Origin: Bosea sp. 685 | GTDB taxonomy: Bacteria; Pseudomonadota; Alphaproteobacteria; Rhizobiales; Beijerinckiaceae | DNA: 64,000 bases | Assembly: GCF_031884435.1 (NCBI RefSeq) | Contig: NZ_CP134779.1 | Coordinates: forward strand, 6,420,001 to 6,484,000 | Reading direction: 5' to 3' | Part shown: positions 3 to 64,000 of the stretch, one piece after another | Position numbering within the stretch: the first letter of the stretch is position 1 | Layout of the letters: each line of letters starts with the position of its first letter | Made by a program: the position numbers and the translations under genes | Notes under the pieces: generated by a model | Databases searched by the model: none | Told to the model about the DNA's origin: nothing | The model's input: the letters and a program-made list of their open reading frames with translations, nothing else

Positions 3-869
3 GACCTCAAATACGACAGCGTGCCCGGCTGGTCGCAGGAGGCCGAGGAGGCCATGCCGCATGGCTGGAAGCCCGGCCGGCAGACGCAGTTGATCCGCGA
101 GAGGCTCGACGCGGTGCCAGATGGCGGCACCATCGTGATGATCGCCCCGCCCAACCCCTATCGCTGCCCACCCGGCCCCTATGAGCGCGCCTCGATGTTC
201 GCGCATGTGCTGACGCGGACGGGCCGCAGCAAGGCCCGTATCGTCATCCTCGACCCCAAGGAGAGCTTTTCCAAGCAGGGCGTCTTCATGCCCGACTGGG
301 AGAAGCGCTATGGCGCGATGATCGAATGGCTCGGCCCGAAGGTGCATGACGGCATCAGATCGGTCGATCCGAAGACCAGCACCGTGGTGACCGGCTTCGA
401 GACCTACGCGAACTGCGCCTTCGTCAACGTCATCCCGGCCCAGATGGCGGGCGCGATCGCGCGCGATGCGGGGCTGGCGCCGACTGGGGGCTATTGCGCC
501 ATCGACCCGGCGACGATGAAGTCCGTCGTCGACGCAAACATCGTCGTGCTCGGCGATGCCTGCAATGCCGGCGACATGCCGAAATCGGCCTTCTCCGCCA
601 ACAACCAGGCCAAGGTCGCGGCGATGATCCTGCGCGGCGAACTGGCCGGCGGGCAAACCTTCCCGGCGCGCTACCTCAACACCTGCTGGAGCCTGGTCGA
701 TACCGACGACGCCATCAAGGTCGGCGGCCGCTATGAGCCCAAGGACGGCCGCATCGCCGCAGTGGAGAGCTTCATCTCGCAGCCGGGCGAGAGCGCCGAT
801 ATCCGCCGGCAGACGCAGGCCGAGAATATCGCCTGGTACGACGCCATCTGCGCCGACATGTTCGCCTGA
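3..869 (+). CDS. fccB: Flavocytochrome c sulfide dehydrogenase, flavoprotein subunit (3' part)
   Basis: The gene is cut by the left edge of the window; the reading frame is open from base 3, so about 288 C-terminal residues are seen of a family that is usually near 420-430. FccB (SoxF when in sox clusters) is a periplasmic FAD protein that oxidises sulfide and passes electrons to a c-type cytochrome. The two short segments that carry the redox-active cysteines in this family are visible: NPYRCPPGPYERA early in the fragment and GGYCAID in the middle. A typical FAD segment, VLGDACNAGDMPKSAFSANN, follows, then a C-terminal FCSD flavin-binding region. A cytochrome c gene follows 89 nt downstream, and a soxXYZA operon converges on the pair, which supports a sulfur-oxidation role. 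A general pyridine nucleotide-disulfide oxidoreductase is the only real alternative. Confidence 0.85.
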   Translation, partial: DLKYDSVPGWSQEAEEAMPHGWKPGRQTQLIRERLDAVPDGGTIVMIAPPNPYRCPPGPYERASMFAHVLTRTGRSKARIVILDPKESFSKQGVFMPDWEKRYGAMIEWLGPKVHDGIRSVDPKTSTVVTGFETYANCAFVNVIPAQMAGAIARDAGLAPTGGYCAIDPATMKSVVDANIVVLGDACNAGDMPKSAFSANNQAKVAAMILRGELAGGQTFPARYLNTCWSLVDTDDAIKVGGRYEPKDGRIAAVESFISQPGESADIRRQTQAENIAWYDAICADMFA

Positions 870-958
870 TGGATGTCACGCGACGCCGGAACCGTTCATT
901 CAAAAGCGGATCGACTGCCACGCGGTATTTTACGGCTCAACCCACCGACAAGGAAAAG

Positions 959-1357
959 ATGATGATGAAAGCCCTCTATGCCAGCGCCTCGATCTTGACC
1001 GCAGCGATGCTGCTCGGGACGTCCGCCCATGCCCAGGACATCGCCGCCGGCGAACGCTCCTTCGCCAAGTGCCGTGCCTGTCACCAGCTTGGCGAGACGG
1101 CGAAGAACACGATCGGGCCGGTGCTCAATGGCCTGTTCGGTCGGCAGTCGGGCTCCGTCGAGGGCTACAGCTATTCAGCCGCCAACAAGGCGGCCGGCCT
1201 GACCTGGGATGACGCGGTCTTCGCCGACTACATCAAGGACCCGAAGGCCAAGATTCCCGGCACCAAGATGATCTTCGCCGGCATCAAGAACGAGGAGGAG
1301 GTCAAGAACCTAACCGCCTATCTCAAGCAGTTCGACAAGGACGGCAAGAAGCTCTGA
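959..1357 (+). CDS. Monoheme class I cytochrome c, probable electron acceptor of the sulfide dehydrogenase
   Basis: This 132-residue protein starts with a signal peptide (cleavage probably after SAHA, about residue 25). It has one heme attachment site, CRACH at residues 38-42, and a likely axial methionine, M104, in GTKM. Size and layout match class I cytochromes of the c2/c550 kind. I chose the ATG at 959 because AAGGAAAAG lies just upstream and the signal peptide begins there; the longer open frame upstream is not signal-like. It follows fccB by 89 nt on the same strand, so it probably accepts electrons from that flavoprotein or from SoxAX and carries them to a terminal oxidase. FccA and SoxE proteins are often diheme, so this is not a standard FccA by sequence, and I give no symbol. 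Confidence 0.85.
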   Translation: MMMKALYASASILTAAMLLGTSAHAQDIAAGERSFAKCRACHQLGETAKNTIGPVLNGLFGRQSGSVEGYSYSAANKAAGLTWDDAVFADYIKDPKAKIPGTKMIFAGIKNEEEVKNLTAYLKQFDKDGKKL

Positions 1358-1420
1358 GGCCGGCAGGTCTTACGGCCCCACAGGCACCTAGACTTGCACA
1401 GAGCCTGAATCGTGACGCGG

Positions 1421-1532
1421 GTCGTCCCGGACAAGCCACATAGCGGCGCCGATCCGGGATGCATGCCGGAACTTTTGCCTGATAGGCTCAGGCATCGGCC
1501 CCGGATCTCCGCTGCGCTCCGTCCCGGACGAC
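1421..1532. repeat. Imperfect inverted repeat between convergent genes (GTCGTCCCGGAC arms)
   Basis: The segment begins GTCGTCCCGGAC and ends with its reverse complement, GTCCCGGACGAC. Inside are GATCCGGGAT and a partial match on the other side. It fills the space between the cytochrome gene and the 3' end of soxA, which converge. It resembles the dispersed 'cccgggat' palindromes elsewhere in the window and may end transcription from both sides. Confidence 0.6.
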
Positions 1533-1558
1533 ACCGTGGCAGGCCTCAACCTGGCAAC

Positions 1559-2332
1559 CTAACGCCGCATGCCCGGCGTCTCCACGGGCAGGCCCTTGGC
1601 CCGTCCGGCGAGGTAAAGCTCCAGCGCAAGATATTCCGGCGAACCGTAATCGAACTGCGTCGCGCGCACGCCGAGCGAGCAGGCCCGCAGGCGCCGGTGC
1701 AGCGAGCCGACATCGTTCCATTCCAGCCGATAGGCTGGATAGCCCGTGCCAGCCCCGTGGCTGATCGTATCGCCGCGCAGCTTCTGCCCGACCATGCCGT
1801 CATGGCATTGCTGGCAGGAGAGATTGAGCTGGCCCTGCCGGCGCTCGAAGAAGGCCTTGCCCGCCTCGAAATAAGGCTTGGCCGCGCCATCGGTTTTCAC
1901 CTCGACCGGCACGCCGCGCGATAGTGAGGCGACATAGGCCGTCATCGCTAGCAACTCGGGGCTCTCATAGCCGAAGGCCGGCTGCCCTTGCCGCTCACCC
2001 CTGCATTGCTCGATGCGGCCTTCCAGGTTGAGCAGCTTGCCGGACGCGGCATCGACCTGCGGATAATGCGCAGCAGTGCCGCGCAGGCTCTGCTGCGGAT
2101 CGGCATGGCAGCCGCTGCACGCCTGCCCGTCCGGGGCGGGCTTGCGGCTGAACAGCTCGCGGCCCTGCTCGACCCAGAAGAAGGCGGGGTTGCGGTTCTC
2201 GTCCGCCTGCTGGCGACGCATGTCGGGAGAGAGGAAATCTGTGCCGGATTTGATCTCAGACAGAGCCGGAGCGGCGGCCAACGTCGCCAGCACGAGCACA
2301 ACGGTTCCTGGGCTCAGTCGCCGCCCACTCAC
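1559..2332 (-). CDS. soxA: Sulfur oxidation diheme c-type cytochrome SoxA
   Basis: SoxA with SoxX forms the periplasmic SoxAX heterodimer, which attaches thiosulfate to the carrier protein SoxYZ. The 257-residue protein shows a signal peptide (about residues 1-25), two heme sites, CSGCH at 72-76 and CQQCH at 173-177, and the family hallmark cysteine C218 in RACSLGVRA, the residue that becomes a persulfide heme ligand. I place the start at GTG 2332 because it overlaps the soxZ stop (GTGA) and begins the signal peptide directly; an in-frame ATG further upstream would add 18 residues inside soxZ. It is the last gene of a leftward operon iorA-iorB-soxX-soxY-soxZ-soxA. The gene order X-Y-Z-A is usual; soxB does not follow it here. 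Confidence 0.93.
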   Translation of the reverse strand: MSGRRLSPGTVVLVLATLAAAPALSEIKSGTDFLSPDMRRQQADENRNPAFFWVEQGRELFSRKPAPDGQACSGCHADPQQSLRGTAAHYPQVDAASGKLLNLEGRIEQCRGERQGQPAFGYESPELLAMTAYVASLSRGVPVEVKTDGAAKPYFEAGKAFFERRQGQLNLSCQQCHDGMVGQKLRGDTISHGAGTGYPAYRLEWNDVGSLHRRLRACSLGVRATQFDYGSPEYLALELYLAGRAKGLPVETPGMRR

Positions 2333-51172: not shown

Positions 51173-54100
51173 GTGGACATCAATTTCTCCGCCTGGTCGA
51201 TCCGGAAGCCGGTTCCCGCGATCCTGCTCTTCGTCGTGCTCTGCGTGCTCGGGCTGCTCTCCTTCTCGAAGCTGCCGGTGACGCGTTTTCCCAATATCGA
51301 CGTGCCGCTGGTCTCGGTCACGGTGACCCAGTCGGGCGCCGCGCCCGCCGAGCTGGAAAGCCAGATCAGCAAGCGCGTCGAGGACGCGGTCGCCAACATC
51401 ACCGGCGTCAAGCATGTGATGTCGACGCTGACCGACGGCTCCTCGGTGACGTCGATCGAGTTCCGGCTAGAGACCAACACCGACCGCGCCGTCAACGACG
51501 TCAAGGACGCCATCGCCAAGATCAGGGCCGATCTGCCGCGCACGATCGACGAGCCGATCATTCAGCGCATCGATGTCGAGGGCCAGTCGATCATGACCTT
51601 CGGCGCCTCTTCGCCGGGCATGACGCTGGAGCAGATCTCCTGGCATGTCGACGATGTCGTCGCGCGCGAATTGCAGGGCCTCAAGGGCGTCGGCCGGATC
51701 GACCGCTTCGGCGGCGTCGATCGCGAGATCCGCATCTCGCTAGATCCCGACCGTTTGCTCGCGCTGGGCACCACGGCGGGCGAGGTCAATCGCCAGATCC
51801 GCGCCACCAATGTCGATCTCGCCGGCGGGCGCGGCGAGGTCGGCGGGCAGGAACAAGCGATCCGCACGCTCGCCAGCGCGCGCACCGTAGCCGAGCTGGC
51901 GGATTCCAAGATCACGCTGACCGGCGGCCGCGAGGTGCGGTTGAAGGAACTCGGCCGGGTCGAGGATTCGAATTCCGAGCCGCGCTCCTTCGGCCGGCTC
52001 GACAAGGTGCCGGTCGTCTCCTTCGCGGTGTTCCGCTCGAAGGGTTCGAGCGAGTTGTCGGTCAAGGATGTCGTTGCGGCGCGCATCGCCGAGCTCAACA
52101 AGCGCTACCCCGACATCGTGATCAAGCCGATCGACGACGCCGTCGCCTATACCTACGGCAACTACAAGGCGGCGATGGAAACGCTGATCGAGGGCGCGGC
52201 GCTGGCCGTGCTCGTCGTCTTCCTGTTCCTGCGCAACTGGCGCGCCACGCTGATCACGGCGATCGCGTTGCCGCTCTCGGCCATCCCGACCTTCTGGGCG
52301 ATGGAGCTGATGGGCTTTTCGCTCAACCTCGTCAGCCTGCTCGGCATCACGCTGGTCACCGGCATCCTGGTCGATGACGCCATCGTCGAGATCGAGAACA
52401 TTGTCCGGCATATGAAGATGGGCAAATCGCCCTATCGCGCCGCAATGGAGGCCGCCGACGAGATCGGGCTCGCCGTCATCGCGATCACGCTGACGATCGT
52501 GGCGATCTTTGCGCCGGTCTCCTTCATGGGGGGCGTGGCGGGCCAGTATTTCCGCCAGTTCGGCCTGACTGTCGCGGTCGCGGTGCTGTTTTCGCTGCTT
52601 GTCGCGCGTCTGATCACGCCGATGATGGCGGCCTATCTGATGAAGCCGGTGAAGCACGCCGACGCCAAGGACGGCGTCGTGATGGGCGCCTATGTCGGCC
52701 TGCTGCGCGGCACGCTGGCGCGACGCGAAATCCCGCTATTGCCGCGCTTCGACGGTTCGGGCCGCTGGCGCAAACTGCCGCTCAACATGGCCTATGTCAC
52801 GCTGCTGATCGGCTTCGGTTTCCTCTTCGCCTCGATTCAGGCGACGGCGCTGCTGCCGACCGGCTTCATTCCCGACGAGGACACCTCGCGTGTCGTGGCC
52901 TCGGTCGAATTGCCGCCGGGCTCGACATTGGAGGACACCCGCGTCGCGACCGACCTGATCGTCGATCGCCTGCGCACGATCCCCGAGGTGACGCAGGTCT
53001 TCGTGCTCGGCGGCTCCTCGCCGACCGGCCAGCGCGAGGTGCGCCGCGCCGCGGTGACGATCAAGCTCCTGCCCAAGGCCGAGCGCAAGGCGCGCCAAAA
53101 AGACCTCAAGGTCGTCATTGCCCAGAAACTCGCCGGCGTGCCCGATACCCGCGCCTGGTACGTCAATGAGCGTGGCGAGCGCGAAATGGCCTTCTCGATC
53201 CTGTCCAAGGACGGCGCGGCGCTCGACGAGGCCGTGGCGCGGATCGAAAGCCGCATGCGCAAGATCGACGGCTATCTCAATGTCGCGACCTCGGGCTCGC
53301 TCAGCCGGCCGGAACTGCGCGTCACGCCCAAGCTCGAACAGGCCGCCAATCTCGGCGTCACGCCGGAATCGATCTCGGAGGCTGTGCGCGTCGCCACCAT
53401 CGGCGATGTCGGGGCCAATCTCGCCAAGTTCAACGCCGGCGACCGTCTGGTGCCGATCCGCGTCCAGCTCGACGAGGCCGCCCGCGCCGATATCCGCAAC
53501 ATCGCGGCCTTGCGCGTCACCAATGCCAATGGCGTCTCGATCCCGCTGACGGCGGTGGCCGAGATCGGCTTCGGCGAGGGGCCGAGCTCGATCGACCGCT
53601 ATGACCGCGTCCGCCGGGCCGCGATCGGCGCCGATCTCAAGCGCGGCTTCGAACTGGGCACCGCGCAGGACACCTTCAAGGAGATCGTCAGGCAAGTCGG
53701 CCTGCCCGCGGGCGTGCGCATCGCCGCGACCGGCGACGCCGAGATCCAGGGCGAGGTGGTGCAGGGCTTCATCACCGCGATGGCGACCGGCCTGATGCTG
53801 GTGCTGGCGGTGCTGATCCTGCTCTTCGGCTCGGTCTTCCAGCCGATCACGATCCTGCTCTCGCTGCCGCTCTCCTTCGGCGGCGTGGTCATCGCCCTGC
53901 TCGCCACCGACAAGCCGGTCTCGATGCCGGTCTATATCGGCCTGCTCATGCTGATGGGCATCGTCACCAAGAACGCGATCATGCTGGTCGATTTCGCGGT
54001 CGAGGAGATGGCGCGCGGCAAGGACCGCCGCACCGCGCTGCTCGAAGCCGGCCGCAAGCGCGCTCGGCCGATCGTGATGACGACGATTGCGATGGCGGCG

Positions 54101-54394
54101 GGCATGATGCCCTCGGCCTATGGTGTCGGCGACGGCGGCGAATTCCGCGCGCCGATGGCGATCGCGGTGATCGGCGGCCTGATCGTCTCGACCGTGCTCT
54201 CGCTCGTCTTCGTGCCGTCCTTCTACGCGGTGATGGATGATCTCTCGCGCCTGACGAGCTGGATCTTCGGCCGCTTCTTCAGCAAGCCCGAGGATGAGAG
54301 CGCCTGGGAGACCATCGACGAACACGCGACGCCGGGCGAAGCGAGCGCCAAGGCAATGGCCAAGCTGCCGCCGCCGCGGTTGGCGGCGGAGTGA
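51173..54394 (+). CDS. RND-family efflux permease (hydrophobe/amphiphile type)
   Basis: A 1073-residue proton-driven pump of the AcrB/MdtB class. The N-terminal helix DINFSAWSIRKPVPAILLF, the porter-domain GSSVTSIEFR and RVEDAVANI segments, and the membrane motif GILVDDAIVEIENIVRHM with the proton-relay aspartate pair are visible. The second half repeats the fold, with GLLMLMGIVTKNAIMLVDFA and RARPIVMTTIAMAAGMMP. GTG 51173 has GGAG nine bases before it and lies 14 nt after the adaptor stop. Substrates are not deducible; the TetR operator suggests a drug- or metabolite-inducible pump. A GC hairpin follows. Confidence 0.95.
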   Translation: MDINFSAWSIRKPVPAILLFVVLCVLGLLSFSKLPVTRFPNIDVPLVSVTVTQSGAAPAELESQISKRVEDAVANITGVKHVMSTLTDGSSVTSIEFRLETNTDRAVNDVKDAIAKIRADLPRTIDEPIIQRIDVEGQSIMTFGASSPGMTLEQISWHVDDVVARELQGLKGVGRIDRFGGVDREIRISLDPDRLLALGTTAGEVNRQIRATNVDLAGGRGEVGGQEQAIRTLASARTVAELADSKITLTGGREVRLKELGRVEDSNSEPRSFGRLDKVPVVSFAVFRSKGSSELSVKDVVAARIAELNKRYPDIVIKPIDDAVAYTYGNYKAAMETLIEGAALAVLVVFLFLRNWRATLITAIALPLSAIPTFWAMELMGFSLNLVSLLGITLVTGILVDDAIVEIENIVRHMKMGKSPYRAAMEAADEIGLAVIAITLTIVAIFAPVSFMGGVAGQYFRQFGLTVAVAVLFSLLVARLITPMMAAYLMKPVKHADAKDGVVMGAYVGLLRGTLARREIPLLPRFDGSGRWRKLPLNMAYVTLLIGFGFLFASIQATALLPTGFIPDEDTSRVVASVELPPGSTLEDTRVATDLIVDRLRTIPEVTQVFVLGGSSPTGQREVRRAAVTIKLLPKAERKARQKDLKVVIAQKLAGVPDTRAWYVNERGEREMAFSILSKDGAALDEAVARIESRMRKIDGYLNVATSGSLSRPELRVTPKLEQAANLGVTPESISEAVRVATIGDVGANLAKFNAGDRLVPIRVQLDEAARADIRNIAALRVTNANGVSIPLTAVAEIGFGEGPSSIDRYDRVRRAAIGADLKRGFELGTAQDTFKEIVRQVGLPAGVRIAATGDAEIQGEVVQGFITAMATGLMLVLAVLILLFGSVFQPITILLSLPLSFGGVVIALLATDKPVSMPVYIGLLMLMGIVTKNAIMLVDFAVEEMARGKDRRTALLEAGRKRARPIVMTTIAMAAGMMPSAYGVGDGGEFRAPMAIAVIGGLIVSTVLSLVFVPSFYAVMDDLSRLTSWIFGRFFSKPEDESAWETIDEHATPGEASAKAMAKLPPPRLAAE

Positions 54395-54397
54395 AGG

Positions 54398-54415
54398 GGC
54401 GGGCTTTCGCCCGCC
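54398..54415 (+). terminator. GC-rich hairpin after the RND permease gene
   Basis: GGCGGGC and GCCCGCC pair with a TTTC loop, 3 nt after the stop. There is no T tract, so termination may be factor-dependent. Confidence 0.5.
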
Positions 54416-54466
54416 TCGCGACTAGCGCCTGCTGTCTTGGCCCTGTTGTCCTGGCTCGGAACCAGG

Positions 54467-54500
54467 CCGTCATCCTGGGCTTCGCGTAGCGAAGTCCCGG
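54467..54500. repeat. Left half of a family-A palindrome interrupted by the IS110 element
   Basis: The half begins CCGTCATCCTGGG and ends AAGTCCCGG at the insertion point. Its partner half is at 55611-55688. Confidence 0.85.
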
Positions 54501-54520
54501 CAACTGTGTTGTTTGGAGTG

Positions 54521-55447
54521 TCATGGTTGGAAGGCGGTGTCAGTTTTGAGCATGGCGTTGAGGGTTACGAGGAGCTTTCTTGCGACGGCGATGATGGCGA
54601 CTTTTGCGGCTGCGCTTCTTGCGCGGACGGCGTCGTAGAAGGTCTTGAAGCGCGCAGATGTCCGGATGGCAGCCAGCGCGGCCATGTAGAGGGCTTTGCG
54701 GACGCGTCGCCTTCCGCCCCTGATCATGCGCTGTCCGCGCCTGCGCCCGCTGTCATTGTTGAAGGGCGCGAGACCGGCGAGCGCGGCGATGGCCTTTGGC
54801 GAGACGTGGCCGAGTTCGGGCATCAGGGCGATGAGAGTGACGGCTGTGACGGGCCCGATGCCGGGCGCCGAGCGCAGCAGAGCTTGCGTCCTGGCCAAGG
54901 TCTCATCTGCCCGCAAGGCCTCGCTGACGAGGTGCTCGAGCGTGGCGATCTCCGCATCGAGCCAGGCGAGATGGCGGGCGAGGCTGCCGGTGGGATCTTG
55001 CCCCTCGCTGTCGCGGACGCGCTCGGCGGCGCGCATCTCGACGAGCTGATCGCGGCGTTTGTGCAGCTGTGCCAAGGCGTTGCGAGCGGGATCGGAGGCT
55101 GCGTCGGGCATGAGCGCCAGCATGCGCGCCATCGCAGCCAGCATCTCGGCGTCGATCGCATCGGTCTTGGCCAGGCGGCCGGTGGCGCGGGCGAAGTCGC
55201 GGGCGCGCGCCGGATTGATCCGGGCGAAGCGGCAGCCGGCCTGCTCCAGGGTCTGGCGCAGCGTGTGGTCATAGGGGCCGGTTGCCTCGAAGGCGACGAA
55301 GCTGGCCTGGCAGTCGAGCGACGACAGCCAGGTCGCGATCGCCTCGCTCGTATTGGCGATCCGAAGGCTCGTCCCGCTCGTCTCCTCGAACAGGTCGAGA
55401 TGGCTCTTGGCGATATCGCAACCGATGAAGCAGGGGTGTATGGTCAT
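54521..55447 (-). CDS. IS110-family transposase (DEDD recombinase)
   Basis: A 308-residue transposase. The N-terminal RuvC-like DEDD domain shows the first Asp in FIGCDIAKSHLDL, the Glu in FVAFEATGPYD, and the acidic pair in LAKTDAIDAEMLA. A helical region follows, then the C-terminal transposase-20 domain with SAPGIGPVTAVTLIALMPELG and the serine-bearing LAGLAPFNNDSGRRRGQ. IS110 enzymes use a noncoding 'bridge' RNA from the element to choose target and donor sites. ATG 55447 gives the standard N-terminus; the frame upstream lies in the noncoding end. Confidence 0.95.
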   Translation of the reverse strand: MTIHPCFIGCDIAKSHLDLFEETSGTSLRIANTSEAIATWLSSLDCQASFVAFEATGPYDHTLRQTLEQAGCRFARINPARARDFARATGRLAKTDAIDAEMLAAMARMLALMPDAASDPARNALAQLHKRRDQLVEMRAAERVRDSEGQDPTGSLARHLAWLDAEIATLEHLVSEALRADETLARTQALLRSAPGIGPVTAVTLIALMPELGHVSPKAIAALAGLAPFNNDSGRRRGQRMIRGGRRRVRKALYMAALAAIRTSARFKTFYDAVRARSAAAKVAIIAVARKLLVTLNAMLKTDTAFQP

Positions 55448-55610
55448 GGTGCCTGTCCCTGTGCTGCGAGGTCCGGTGCAAGCGGCCTCGGTCAACTGTT
55501 CAGGATGGGGTCTTCGAACGCGGGCGGGAACCGAGCCGGAACGCGGTGTTTGCCACCCGGGATCCAACGGCTTCCCGCCCGCACCAATCATGACACCAAT
55601 CAAACACACA
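55448..55610 (-). ncRNA. Candidate bridge RNA region of the IS110 element
   Basis: This 163-nt segment upstream of the transposase is where IS110-group elements encode their bridge RNA. At 55556-55566 it contains CCCGGGATCCA, identical to 11 nt of the restored target site across the insertion point. On the RNA strand the matching TGGATCCC would serve as the left target guide plus core. I could not fold the full RNA by eye. Confidence 0.5.
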
Positions 55611-55688
55611 GGGATCCATCGTAGAGCGTCGGAGCCCTCCGATGGATCCCGGAGCTGCGCCGCTTACGCGGCTTGTCCAGGATGACGG
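55611..55688. repeat. Right half of the family-A palindrome interrupted by the IS110 element
   Basis: From GGGATCCATCG at the insertion point to CCAGGATGACGG, the reverse complement of the left end. It also contains an inner palindrome, ATCCATCG with CGATGGAT. Confidence 0.85.
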
Positions 55689-55718
55689 TGTGGTTCCGGC
55701 CACAAATGTGGGCGAGGT

Positions 55719-56642
55719 CTAAAGCGTCGGCGAAATGGAGGGCGATGACCCGCTCGACGGCGCCGCCGGTGGCTGGTTCCGGCGGTTGAGCATCTCGCCG
55801 CGCGAGCGGATGATCTGCGCCATGACGACATCCTGGACGCGTTGCTCGGCGGCGCGGCGGATGGCCTCCCTGTCCGCCGGGCGCGCGCCGTCGAGTTCGA
55901 TGATCTCGACGGTCGCCTGCACCAGTGCATCGACATCCGCCTTGCAGAAGATCATCGCGGCCTTGGCGACGACCTCGGCCTTCTCGTCGGTCAGCAGCAT
56001 CGGCCCGCCTTCCCGCCCGATGCAGGCAAGCGCCCTGGCGCGGATCAGGTCGCGGGTCTTTTCGAGGACCGCCTTCTTCTCCGCCTTAGCCTGCGCGTCG
56101 GCCTCCGCTGGCCGGGGCGCGTTCTGGCCGGGCGACGAGGTCACCGGCCCGCGAATGCTGGCGCTCTGGCGGGCGCATTCGACCAGTGCGGGCAGCATCT
56201 CCGAGGTCGAGGTCAGGGCGAAGGCCAGGCGCTGGTCGTTTGCGACCAGCTCCAGATAGCCGCCATGGCGGAAGGCGTTGATCAGTTGCGAATCTGCGGG
56301 CATCGCGATCGTCATCAGGACCGGCGTCTTGACGTCTGCCGTGACATCGATGCGCGATCTGCGGTCGAAGACGAGCTGCAGCGCCAGTCTCTCGCCCGGC
56401 TTGAGCTTCCAATTGGCGTGCGAGAACCCGATCAGCCATTTGAAATCGGCCGTGATCGAGGTGAGCATGCGCGTGCCGTTCTTGTAGGCAGCGTTCACGG
56501 CGCAATGCGAAAAGGCGCCCGTCGCGTCGTTGGTGAAGGCGCCGCCCGACCAGTTTCCGACGACGATCTTGCCATAGGGGCCCGCAGCCTGCGCCATCGG
56601 CGCCAGCAGCAAGGTCGAAGCCAGGAGAACGCCACGTATCAT
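55719..56642 (-). CDS. Secreted protein of unknown function
   Basis: A 307-residue protein with a signal peptide (about residues 1-20, ending QAAG). The first part (GKIVVGNWSGGAFTNDATGAFSHCAVNAAYKNG) looks like the N-terminal half of a secreted beta-rich domain seen in other Hyphomicrobiales proteins (here given only as GNWSGGAF and FSHCAVNAAY). The second part, from residue 190, is helical, charged and rich in Ala, Lys, Glu and Arg, and the C-terminus is rich in Pro and Ser. I recognise no enzyme motif. It is leftward and alone, 30 nt beyond the interrupted repeat. Confidence 0.7.
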   Translation of the reverse strand: MIRGVLLASTLLLAPMAQAAGPYGKIVVGNWSGGAFTNDATGAFSHCAVNAAYKNGTRMLTSITADFKWLIGFSHANWKLKPGERLALQLVFDRRSRIDVTADVKTPVLMTIAMPADSQLINAFRHGGYLELVANDQRLAFALTSTSEMLPALVECARQSASIRGPVTSSPGQNAPRPAEADAQAKAEKKAVLEKTRDLIRARALACIGREGGPMLLTDEKAEVVAKAAMIFCKADVDALVQATVEIIELDGARPADREAIRRAAEQRVQDVVMAQIIRSRGEMLNRRNQPPAAPSSGSSPSISPTL

Positions 56643-56738
56643 GCTCGCCTCGGCAGATAGGGGCTGCAAGGATGAAGGCTGGCGCGGCTTATCGCAATCC
56701 CGCAGGGGGGCGAATGTGGAGTGGGGCGGCTGCAGTGA

Positions 56739-63930: not shown

Positions 63931-64000
63931 TGTCATCCCGGGCGACCGAAGGGAGACCCGGGATCCATTCCTGAACCTTTCCGAATAGCGCTCCGGAATG
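63931..64000. repeat. Family-A palindrome cut by the right edge
   Basis: Starts GTGTCATCCCGGGCGACC, contains ACCCGGGATCCATTC, and reaches CTCCGGAATG at the window edge. It is an uninterrupted copy of the sequence that the IS110 element has entered at 54500. Confidence 0.8.

Follow-up and report, generated by a model that had tools for sequence, protein, structure and literature searches.

How does an insertion sequence come to occupy one particular point of a repeat that is scattered over its host genome? The question is raised by an IS110-group element in the window, the whole 64,000-nt stretch analysed here (G000:C2:6420001-6484000 of a 6.8-Mb host genome). The element is intact, spans 54501-55610 and interrupts a palindromic repeat, all of which can be read directly from the window, as can the three features named in the preliminary description: an intact transposase, 163 noncoding nt upstream of it and GG on both edges. 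The recombinase ORF (tnp; 54521-55447, minus strand) encodes 308 aa from its ATG and contains the Pfam domains PF01548 (DEDD RuvC, 62 bits against a cut-off of 29) and PF02371 (82.5 bits against 21.3). The protein shows homology to IS621 and ISCro4, two recombinases of solved structure (E about 1e-34), and its residues D11, E54, D96, D99 and S233, counted by hand along the alignment to 8wt6, align with the catalytic residues D11, E60, D102, D105 and S241 of IS621, as named in the accessible part of the source (PMC11208158). The 163 nt of noncoding DNA upstream of tnp (55448-55610) and the 20 nt downstream of it give the layout of IS110 and not that of IS1111, in which the long end lies downstream.

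The core dinucleotide, CC in tnp sense and GG on the plus strand, is present at both edges of the element (54499..54500 on the right, 55611..55612 on the left) and is identical in all six full copies of the genome. The right end (RE; 54501..54520, minus strand) terminates in CAACACAGTTG, in which ACAGTTG beside the core is the left-donor sequence. Long terminal inverted repeats are absent, only ACA/TGT being inverted at the ends when these are read by eye, and a promoter/terminator consensus scan of 54400-55750 found none. By element, the closest named relatives belong to Bosea, with 97% identity over the matched part in Bosea sp. OK403. The window copy, the one checked in this respect, is bordered by two ORFs that converge on it with their 3' ends (51173-54394, plus strand; 55719-56669, minus strand); we infer that the site may be a 'safe' one for insertion.

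Deleting 54501-55610 together with one GG restores AGTCCCGGGATCCATCG, between CCGTCATCCTGG (at 54467) and CCAGGATGACGG (ending at 55688), so that direct reading bears out the proposal that excision would rebuild a palindrome. The right-flank part of the interrupted repeat occupies 54467..54500 and in tnp sense consists of the CC core followed by GGGACTTCGC and onward to CCAGGATGACGG; the left-flank part (55611..55688) includes a second, inverted target copy (TGGATCCCGG on the plus strand, 55643-55652). The repeat was described beforehand as abundant, which agrees with 217 exact target decamers TGGATCCCGG in the genome (104+113), as against 1 (0+1) for a reversed control. A stretch near 63957, pointed out earlier as an uninterrupted relative, does seem to be a single relative of the repeat, lying near the window's end.

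At least six full copies of the element are present in its own genome, along with a partial match of 106 nt (L007) and 34 further places with a strong match confined to the repeat flank (two of these overlap each other); 40 of 386 candidates were scored, which makes these counts lower bounds. The earlier account would have been contradicted by copies flanked by unrelated sequence, whereas all six full copies found and the one deleted remnant sit at the identical point of the identical repeat. In tnp sense the edges common to the six copies read ATGGATC-CC/TGTGTG ... ACAGTTG-CC-GG. The remnant L007 (G000:C2:4523262-4523367) retains 86 nt of the left end from the ATGGATC-CC edge and then runs straight into the right arm of the repeat; its target loop is kept, and the recombinase gene and the donor loop are gone. 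The recombinases of the copies are 95-100% identical while the flanking arms vary, and the identity of the copies suggests recent activity.

All own copies have the same repeat to either side, an arrangement that would also arise if the repeat were part of the element, as long inverted ends, and not its target. To this reading we assign next to no probability, since no part of the element was found in any of the 23 repeat-only loci of 3 kb that were inspected, the 217 decamers far exceed the copies, and the flanking arms differ between copies whose recombinases are nearly or fully identical. Sampling of 40 repeat regions, picked by coordinate from the listed places as far as 3.14 Mb, without the contig-1 site and places beside IS copies, yielded 71 decamers and 31 inverted pairs whose spacers measure 19-37 nt, and 31 of the 40 regions have outer GTCATCC-type arms on both sides. 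The host repeat is thus a double, REP-like palindrome with two outward-pointing targets, mostly in inverted pairs, and the target of the element, judged from sequence, is the 5' edge of this REP-like palindrome.

As a possible origin of the repeat, the genome carries two Y1_Tnp (RAYT-like) genes, 3 kb apart and convergent (G000:C2:4058244-4058567 and 4061288-4061623). The target decamer was not found in the loci around them, and one Y1_Tnp-neighbourhood locus (L250) holds one degenerate hairpin of similar style (GTCATCCCGG...ATGACGG). In the relative G297 (L253), the IS is absent from the gap between the orthologous flanking genes, and a different palindromic repeat, of GGGTTCC type, is found there, as if repeat families were replacing each other at this intergenic gap. 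An exact empty orthologous site was therefore not found in G297, where the neighbouring genes are 92-95% identical and the gap holds the different repeat. The corresponding gap in G316 measures 1.2 kb and is without a match to the element.

A bridge RNA encoded in the noncoding end would account for such precision, and the preliminary description had proposed, as a check, a fold with its 11-nt match to the target in a loop. In an alignment of 14 left ends from related elements, the consensus fold consists of a 13-pair stem closing a guide loop that holds this 11-mer, an inner hairpin and a second stem-loop, with covariation across the 14 relatives. In the window, the closing stem of the target loop (helix 1) is formed by a 5' arm at 55572..55582 and a 3' arm at 55520..55530, and the donor-loop stem-loop CGAGGCCG...CGGACCTCG (helix 3) lies at 55467..55490, all on the minus strand. 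In the named structure 95.8% of cells pair and 10 pairs have changed on both sides among the 14 relatives; doubly changed cells number 23 compared with 6.1 in shuffles, none of 500 shuffles reaching as high, and sliding the stem partners by 1-3 columns lowers pairing to 37-47%. Taken alone, the window RNA has only a modest folding advantage over shuffled sequences (z -1.9, with 10 of 200 shuffles doing as well), and a second folding test gives z -1.6 for the window RNA and +0.6 for Sphingomonas. According to the modelled consensus, the 163-nt region can fold like an IS110 bridge RNA with a target-binding and a donor-binding loop, and 55448..55610 on the minus strand is the predicted bridge RNA.

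Within this predicted RNA, four segments are candidate guides, all on the minus strand. The left target guide TGGATC with the core CC (55559..55566) is identical to the left target, whose bottom strand it would pair with; the right target guide (RTG) GUUCCGG (55536..55542) would pair with CCGG and R of the right target. On the donor side, the right donor guide CACAGG (55458..55463) would pair with the core CC and TGTG of the left end, and the left donor guide ACAGTTG (55493..55499) is identical to the right end beside the core. The window has two exact occurrences of the 11-mer CCCGGGATCCA singled out beforehand (55556-55566 and 63957-63967), compared with a mean of 0.07 in shuffles, none of 100 of which reaches two. 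As a guide match it stands for TGGATC plus the CC core, but not for the next three bases, which are free to vary in relatives; the earlier account had captured the left target guide, whereas the other half of the target guide (55536-55542) and the donor guides had escaped it.

The three post-core bases of the guide loop are GGG in the window element, CGG in the own-genome copy L061 and, among relatives, AGG, TGG, CGG or TGA; the target, by contrast, has GG behind the core in 12 of 14 lineages and CG in the remaining two. Because these three bases vary and form the foot of the inner hairpin (helix 2 of the consensus fold), the left part of the guide probably measures 6+2 nt and the right part 5-7 nt, lengths that fit the 8-9 and 4-7 nt given for relatives of IS621 in the accessible portion of the report (PMC11208160). 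Among the donor guides, ACAGTTG is present in 13 of the 14 lineages and deleted in one, and the right donor guide is fully paired in nine lineages and at 5 of 6 positions in the other five. On the left-donor side, the two bases after ACAGTTG are AC, CA, AA or AT and mismatch the core CC.

The same DNA could instead, or additionally, serve chiefly for the synthesis of an antisense regulatory RNA. The Rfam model RF02234 (sX15) matches its antisense strand (window 55443-55599, plus strand) with 33.4 bits, below the gathering cut-off of 55, and a search of the own genome at the search threshold gave no match. Among 398 genomes of the phylum, sX15 has 13 matches in 5 genomes, and six of the 13 (L187, L189, L190, L191, L193 and L195, in 4 genomes) have an IS110 recombinase match directly beside them on the opposite strand, the one at L191 covering only 53 residues (E 3e-4). 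In L187, for instance, sX15 scores 120 bits at 1501-1662 (plus strand) and tnp lies at 939-1481 (minus strand). The remaining seven matches are all in G709 at contig ends, with no recombinase match in the available flanking DNA. Thus, the sX15 family lies antisense on IS110 bridge-RNA loci in 6 of 13 matches. L190 additionally contains, at 9-111 (plus strand) and just past the 3' end of another IS110 recombinase gene, a match to Rfam TwoAYGGAY (RF01731) above its cut-off.

An antisense product has a precedent in ISPpu9, an IS110/IS492-family element residing in REPs, for which the antisense RNA Asr9 over the tnp leader was experimentally shown, according to the accessible text (PMC8450116), and the antisense strand has the lower folding z in 5 of the 14 relatives (G202, G146a, G121, OK403 and Sphingomonas). 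Against it as the main product, the Alifold consensus is more stable in sense than in antisense orientation (-49.8 versus -35.7), and G-U pairs outnumber A-C pairs in the stems by 6 to 2, although these stems are taken from the sense fold, which favours sense; the polarity of the guides also fits a sense RNA, beside which an antisense RNA could exist. We consider it unlikely that an sX15- or Asr9-like RNA is the chief product of the noncoding end, the consensus fold and the G-U counts disfavouring this candidate and the 5 of 14 single-sequence z-scores pointing the opposite way. A broader proposal, that IS110 elements commonly make antisense RNA over the bridge-RNA gene, as sX15 and Asr9 might exemplify, which could pair with the bridge RNA and switch the transcript between guide and mRNA leader and so control transposition, has a low probability and is put forward tentatively. 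In the literature on Xanthomonas sRNAs that was searched, one paper mentions sX15, in a table (PMC6337395). In a search that lay outside most subscription journals, no paper was found naming RF02234, nor one with both Bosea and IS110.

If the noncoding end makes a bridge RNA, its guides should follow the target wherever the target differs. Guide positions were set on the window element and read from the identical alignment columns elsewhere, the columns having been chosen after the families were seen and hence not blind. Over 14 lineages, Watson-Crick agreement between the left guide (six pre-core bases) and its own left flank is 0.969 compared with 0.635 for swapped targets, and that of the right guide (five post-core bases) is 0.824 compared with 0.520. 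Both differences give p<=1e-5 in 100,000 permutations, a test in which shared host-element ancestry stays, and restriction to the 11 distinct guide pairs gives p<=2e-5. Individual lineages illustrate the correspondence: G202 has target GTGGGCC-CC-GGCTC and guides TTGGGCC and GAGCC; G231 has ATGGGTC-CC-GGTCT with TTGGGTC and AGACC; a MAG relative (L032), whose left flank is only partial, has ..GATT-CC-CGATC with GATT and GATCG. In Devosia the core is CT instead of CC and the right guide has AG in place of GG, the guides being read from one copy with a deleted donor loop and the right flanks from two others. The right donor guide also tracks core and left end, as TACAAG in Devosia and CACGGG in Sphingomonas. 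The IS110 copy L045 of Devosia sp. Leaf420, with core CT, has a deletion that takes half of the donor loop.

The agreement is not complete. RTG pairing is imperfect, even with wobble, in 8 of 14 lineages (G000A, G316, G300, G235, G121, OK403, B. lathyri and Sphingomonas), and left-guide pairing is partial in three (G146a, G121 and Devosia). One of five G121 copies occupies a poor site (TTTGCCT); this copy, L133 on G121:C15, matches 3 of 6 left-guide bases and is an apparent natural off-target. The covariation test covered neither G320 (two copies, right end not recovered) nor Methylocystis (left end missing), nor G064, G117, G194, G207, G216, G040, G146b and G106.

A finer test is offered by a single base. 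Five genomes of the genus carry both sub-variants of the repeat, TGGATCCCGG and TGGATTCCGG, with counts of 217/77 in the own genome, 197/71 in G304, 371/61 in G302, 129/53 in G316 and 147/153 in G344, and the last guide base is C in the own genome, G302 and G316, whereas it is T in G304 and G344. The left flank could be read in 19 copies (six in the own genome, five in G302, two in G316 and three each in G304 and G344), and every one of them lies in the sub-variant specified by the guide, for which the chance probability is 9.4e-5. Left out of this count are G300 and G320, which have another repeat type, the own remnant L007, which matches, and two 70%-identical G316 fragments (L248 and L249) with no left end found. 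In G334, likewise outside the count, two of two left flanks match their own guide.

These results bear on whether specificity resides in the protein alone, the recombinase reading the repeat or its hairpin and the noncoding match being either fortuitous or left over from an ancestral insertion. Other transposases are known to recognise hairpins, the repeat targeted here can form one, and the proteins of close relatives are similar. Yet insertions follow the C or T of the guide in 19 of 19 cases, each of the five genomes offering both repeat variants, and two separate short segments (the left target guide, LTG, and the RTG) as well as the Devosia core follow the target across lineages, so that specificity by protein alone appears very improbable.

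A further reading makes the RTG a deliberately degenerate guide, matched through wobble pairing to the purine variation of the repeat. Its GUU pairs fully with AGC and GAC, and such sites occur in 5 of 6 own copies compared with 23 of 71 sampled sites. However, relatives with a GUU guide in ATC or GTC sites are fully paired in none of two cases in G316, none of three in OK403 and none of four in B. lathyri, and more of the sampled sites (38 of 71) would be within reach of UGG or UAG as guides. Good in its own genome (5/6) but at 0/9 in relatives, wobble degeneracy as an adaptation was set aside as improbable.

The same repeat hosts another element. A second IS110, whose recombinase is 35% identical, has five copies in the own genome (L064-L068; G000:C2:4048086, 4360447, 1368675, 3464236 and 3973753), all five of which interrupt the repeat of the window element after ATGGATCCCGG followed by G or A, 4-5 nt further in. 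Its noncoding end, 191 nt when measured to the point aligned with the start of the window protein, holds GATCCCGG, identical to 8 nt of its own left flank, and its junctions are CT on the right versus (G/A)T on the left.

Taken together, the window element is very probably a bridge-RNA-type IS110 insertion sequence programmed for the host repeat, as the preliminary description had proposed: its copies lie at one point, its noncoding end has the predicted fold, and swapping targets destroys the match. By analogy with published experiments on IS621 and ISEc21, the element would excise as a circle, the joined ends of which would drive transcription of the structured RNA; a recombinase-RNA complex would pair the circle junction ACAGTTG-CC-TGTG with the repeat ATGGATC-CC-GGR, and strands would be exchanged at CC. 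Small guide changes have probably redirected relatives to other repeats or to other sub-variants of this one. Within one genus, close relatives of the element thus offer a ready-made natural test of single-base specificity of bridge RNAs, and the deeper series (the host genus, Sphingomonas, Devosia and others) shows left guide, right guide and core being reprogrammed in nature and provides recombinases that have a CC or CT core and whose genomic targets are known. An orphan Rfam family would be filed anew through the sX15 link, which also poses a testable question, that of anti-guide RNAs.

Bridge RNAs have been known since 2024, a 2003 study reportedly described the targeting of REP by IS621, and IS insertion into REP is said to have been reported in a 2006 survey, so that neither the bridge RNA nor the insertion of IS110 elements into REPs is new as such. 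As far as the literature searched shows, the window element is new, and so are the natural single-base experiment within the genus and the re-reading of sX15. Rfam RF02234 covers the same 5' noncoding region of IS110 elements, but its model lies on the opposite strand, where the RNA may have been observed or to which the family may have been misassigned, and is named an sRNA of Xanthomonadaceae, in a description without a link to IS110. Compared with IS621 of E. coli, in which the core is CT, the element here has core CC, other guides and another repeat. The two are alike in a DEDD and Ser recombinase with the same catalytic residues and in an upstream bridge RNA with target loop followed by donor loop, as far as the available excerpts go (PMC11208160, PMC11208158), and also in a dinucleotide core and a REP-element target, as described in the first of these excerpts (PMC11208160). 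In ISPpu9 and ISPpu10, two dissimilar IS elements of P. putida, all copies likewise lie at one point of a host REP that both share, and they insert at the same base, according to the accessible part of that study (PMC1525189), whereas the second element here is shifted by 4-5 nt. An antisense RNA was shown for ISPpu9, again in the text available (PMC8450116), whereas it is only a possibility for the window element. ISEc21 and its relative ISMch6 resemble the present elements in an upstream noncoding region with both target halves and in natural redirection by guide change; their targets, in the portion of the source at hand (PMC11187229), are linear and lie in IS3-family transposase genes, whereas here redirection tracks the sub-variants of one host repeat within a genus.
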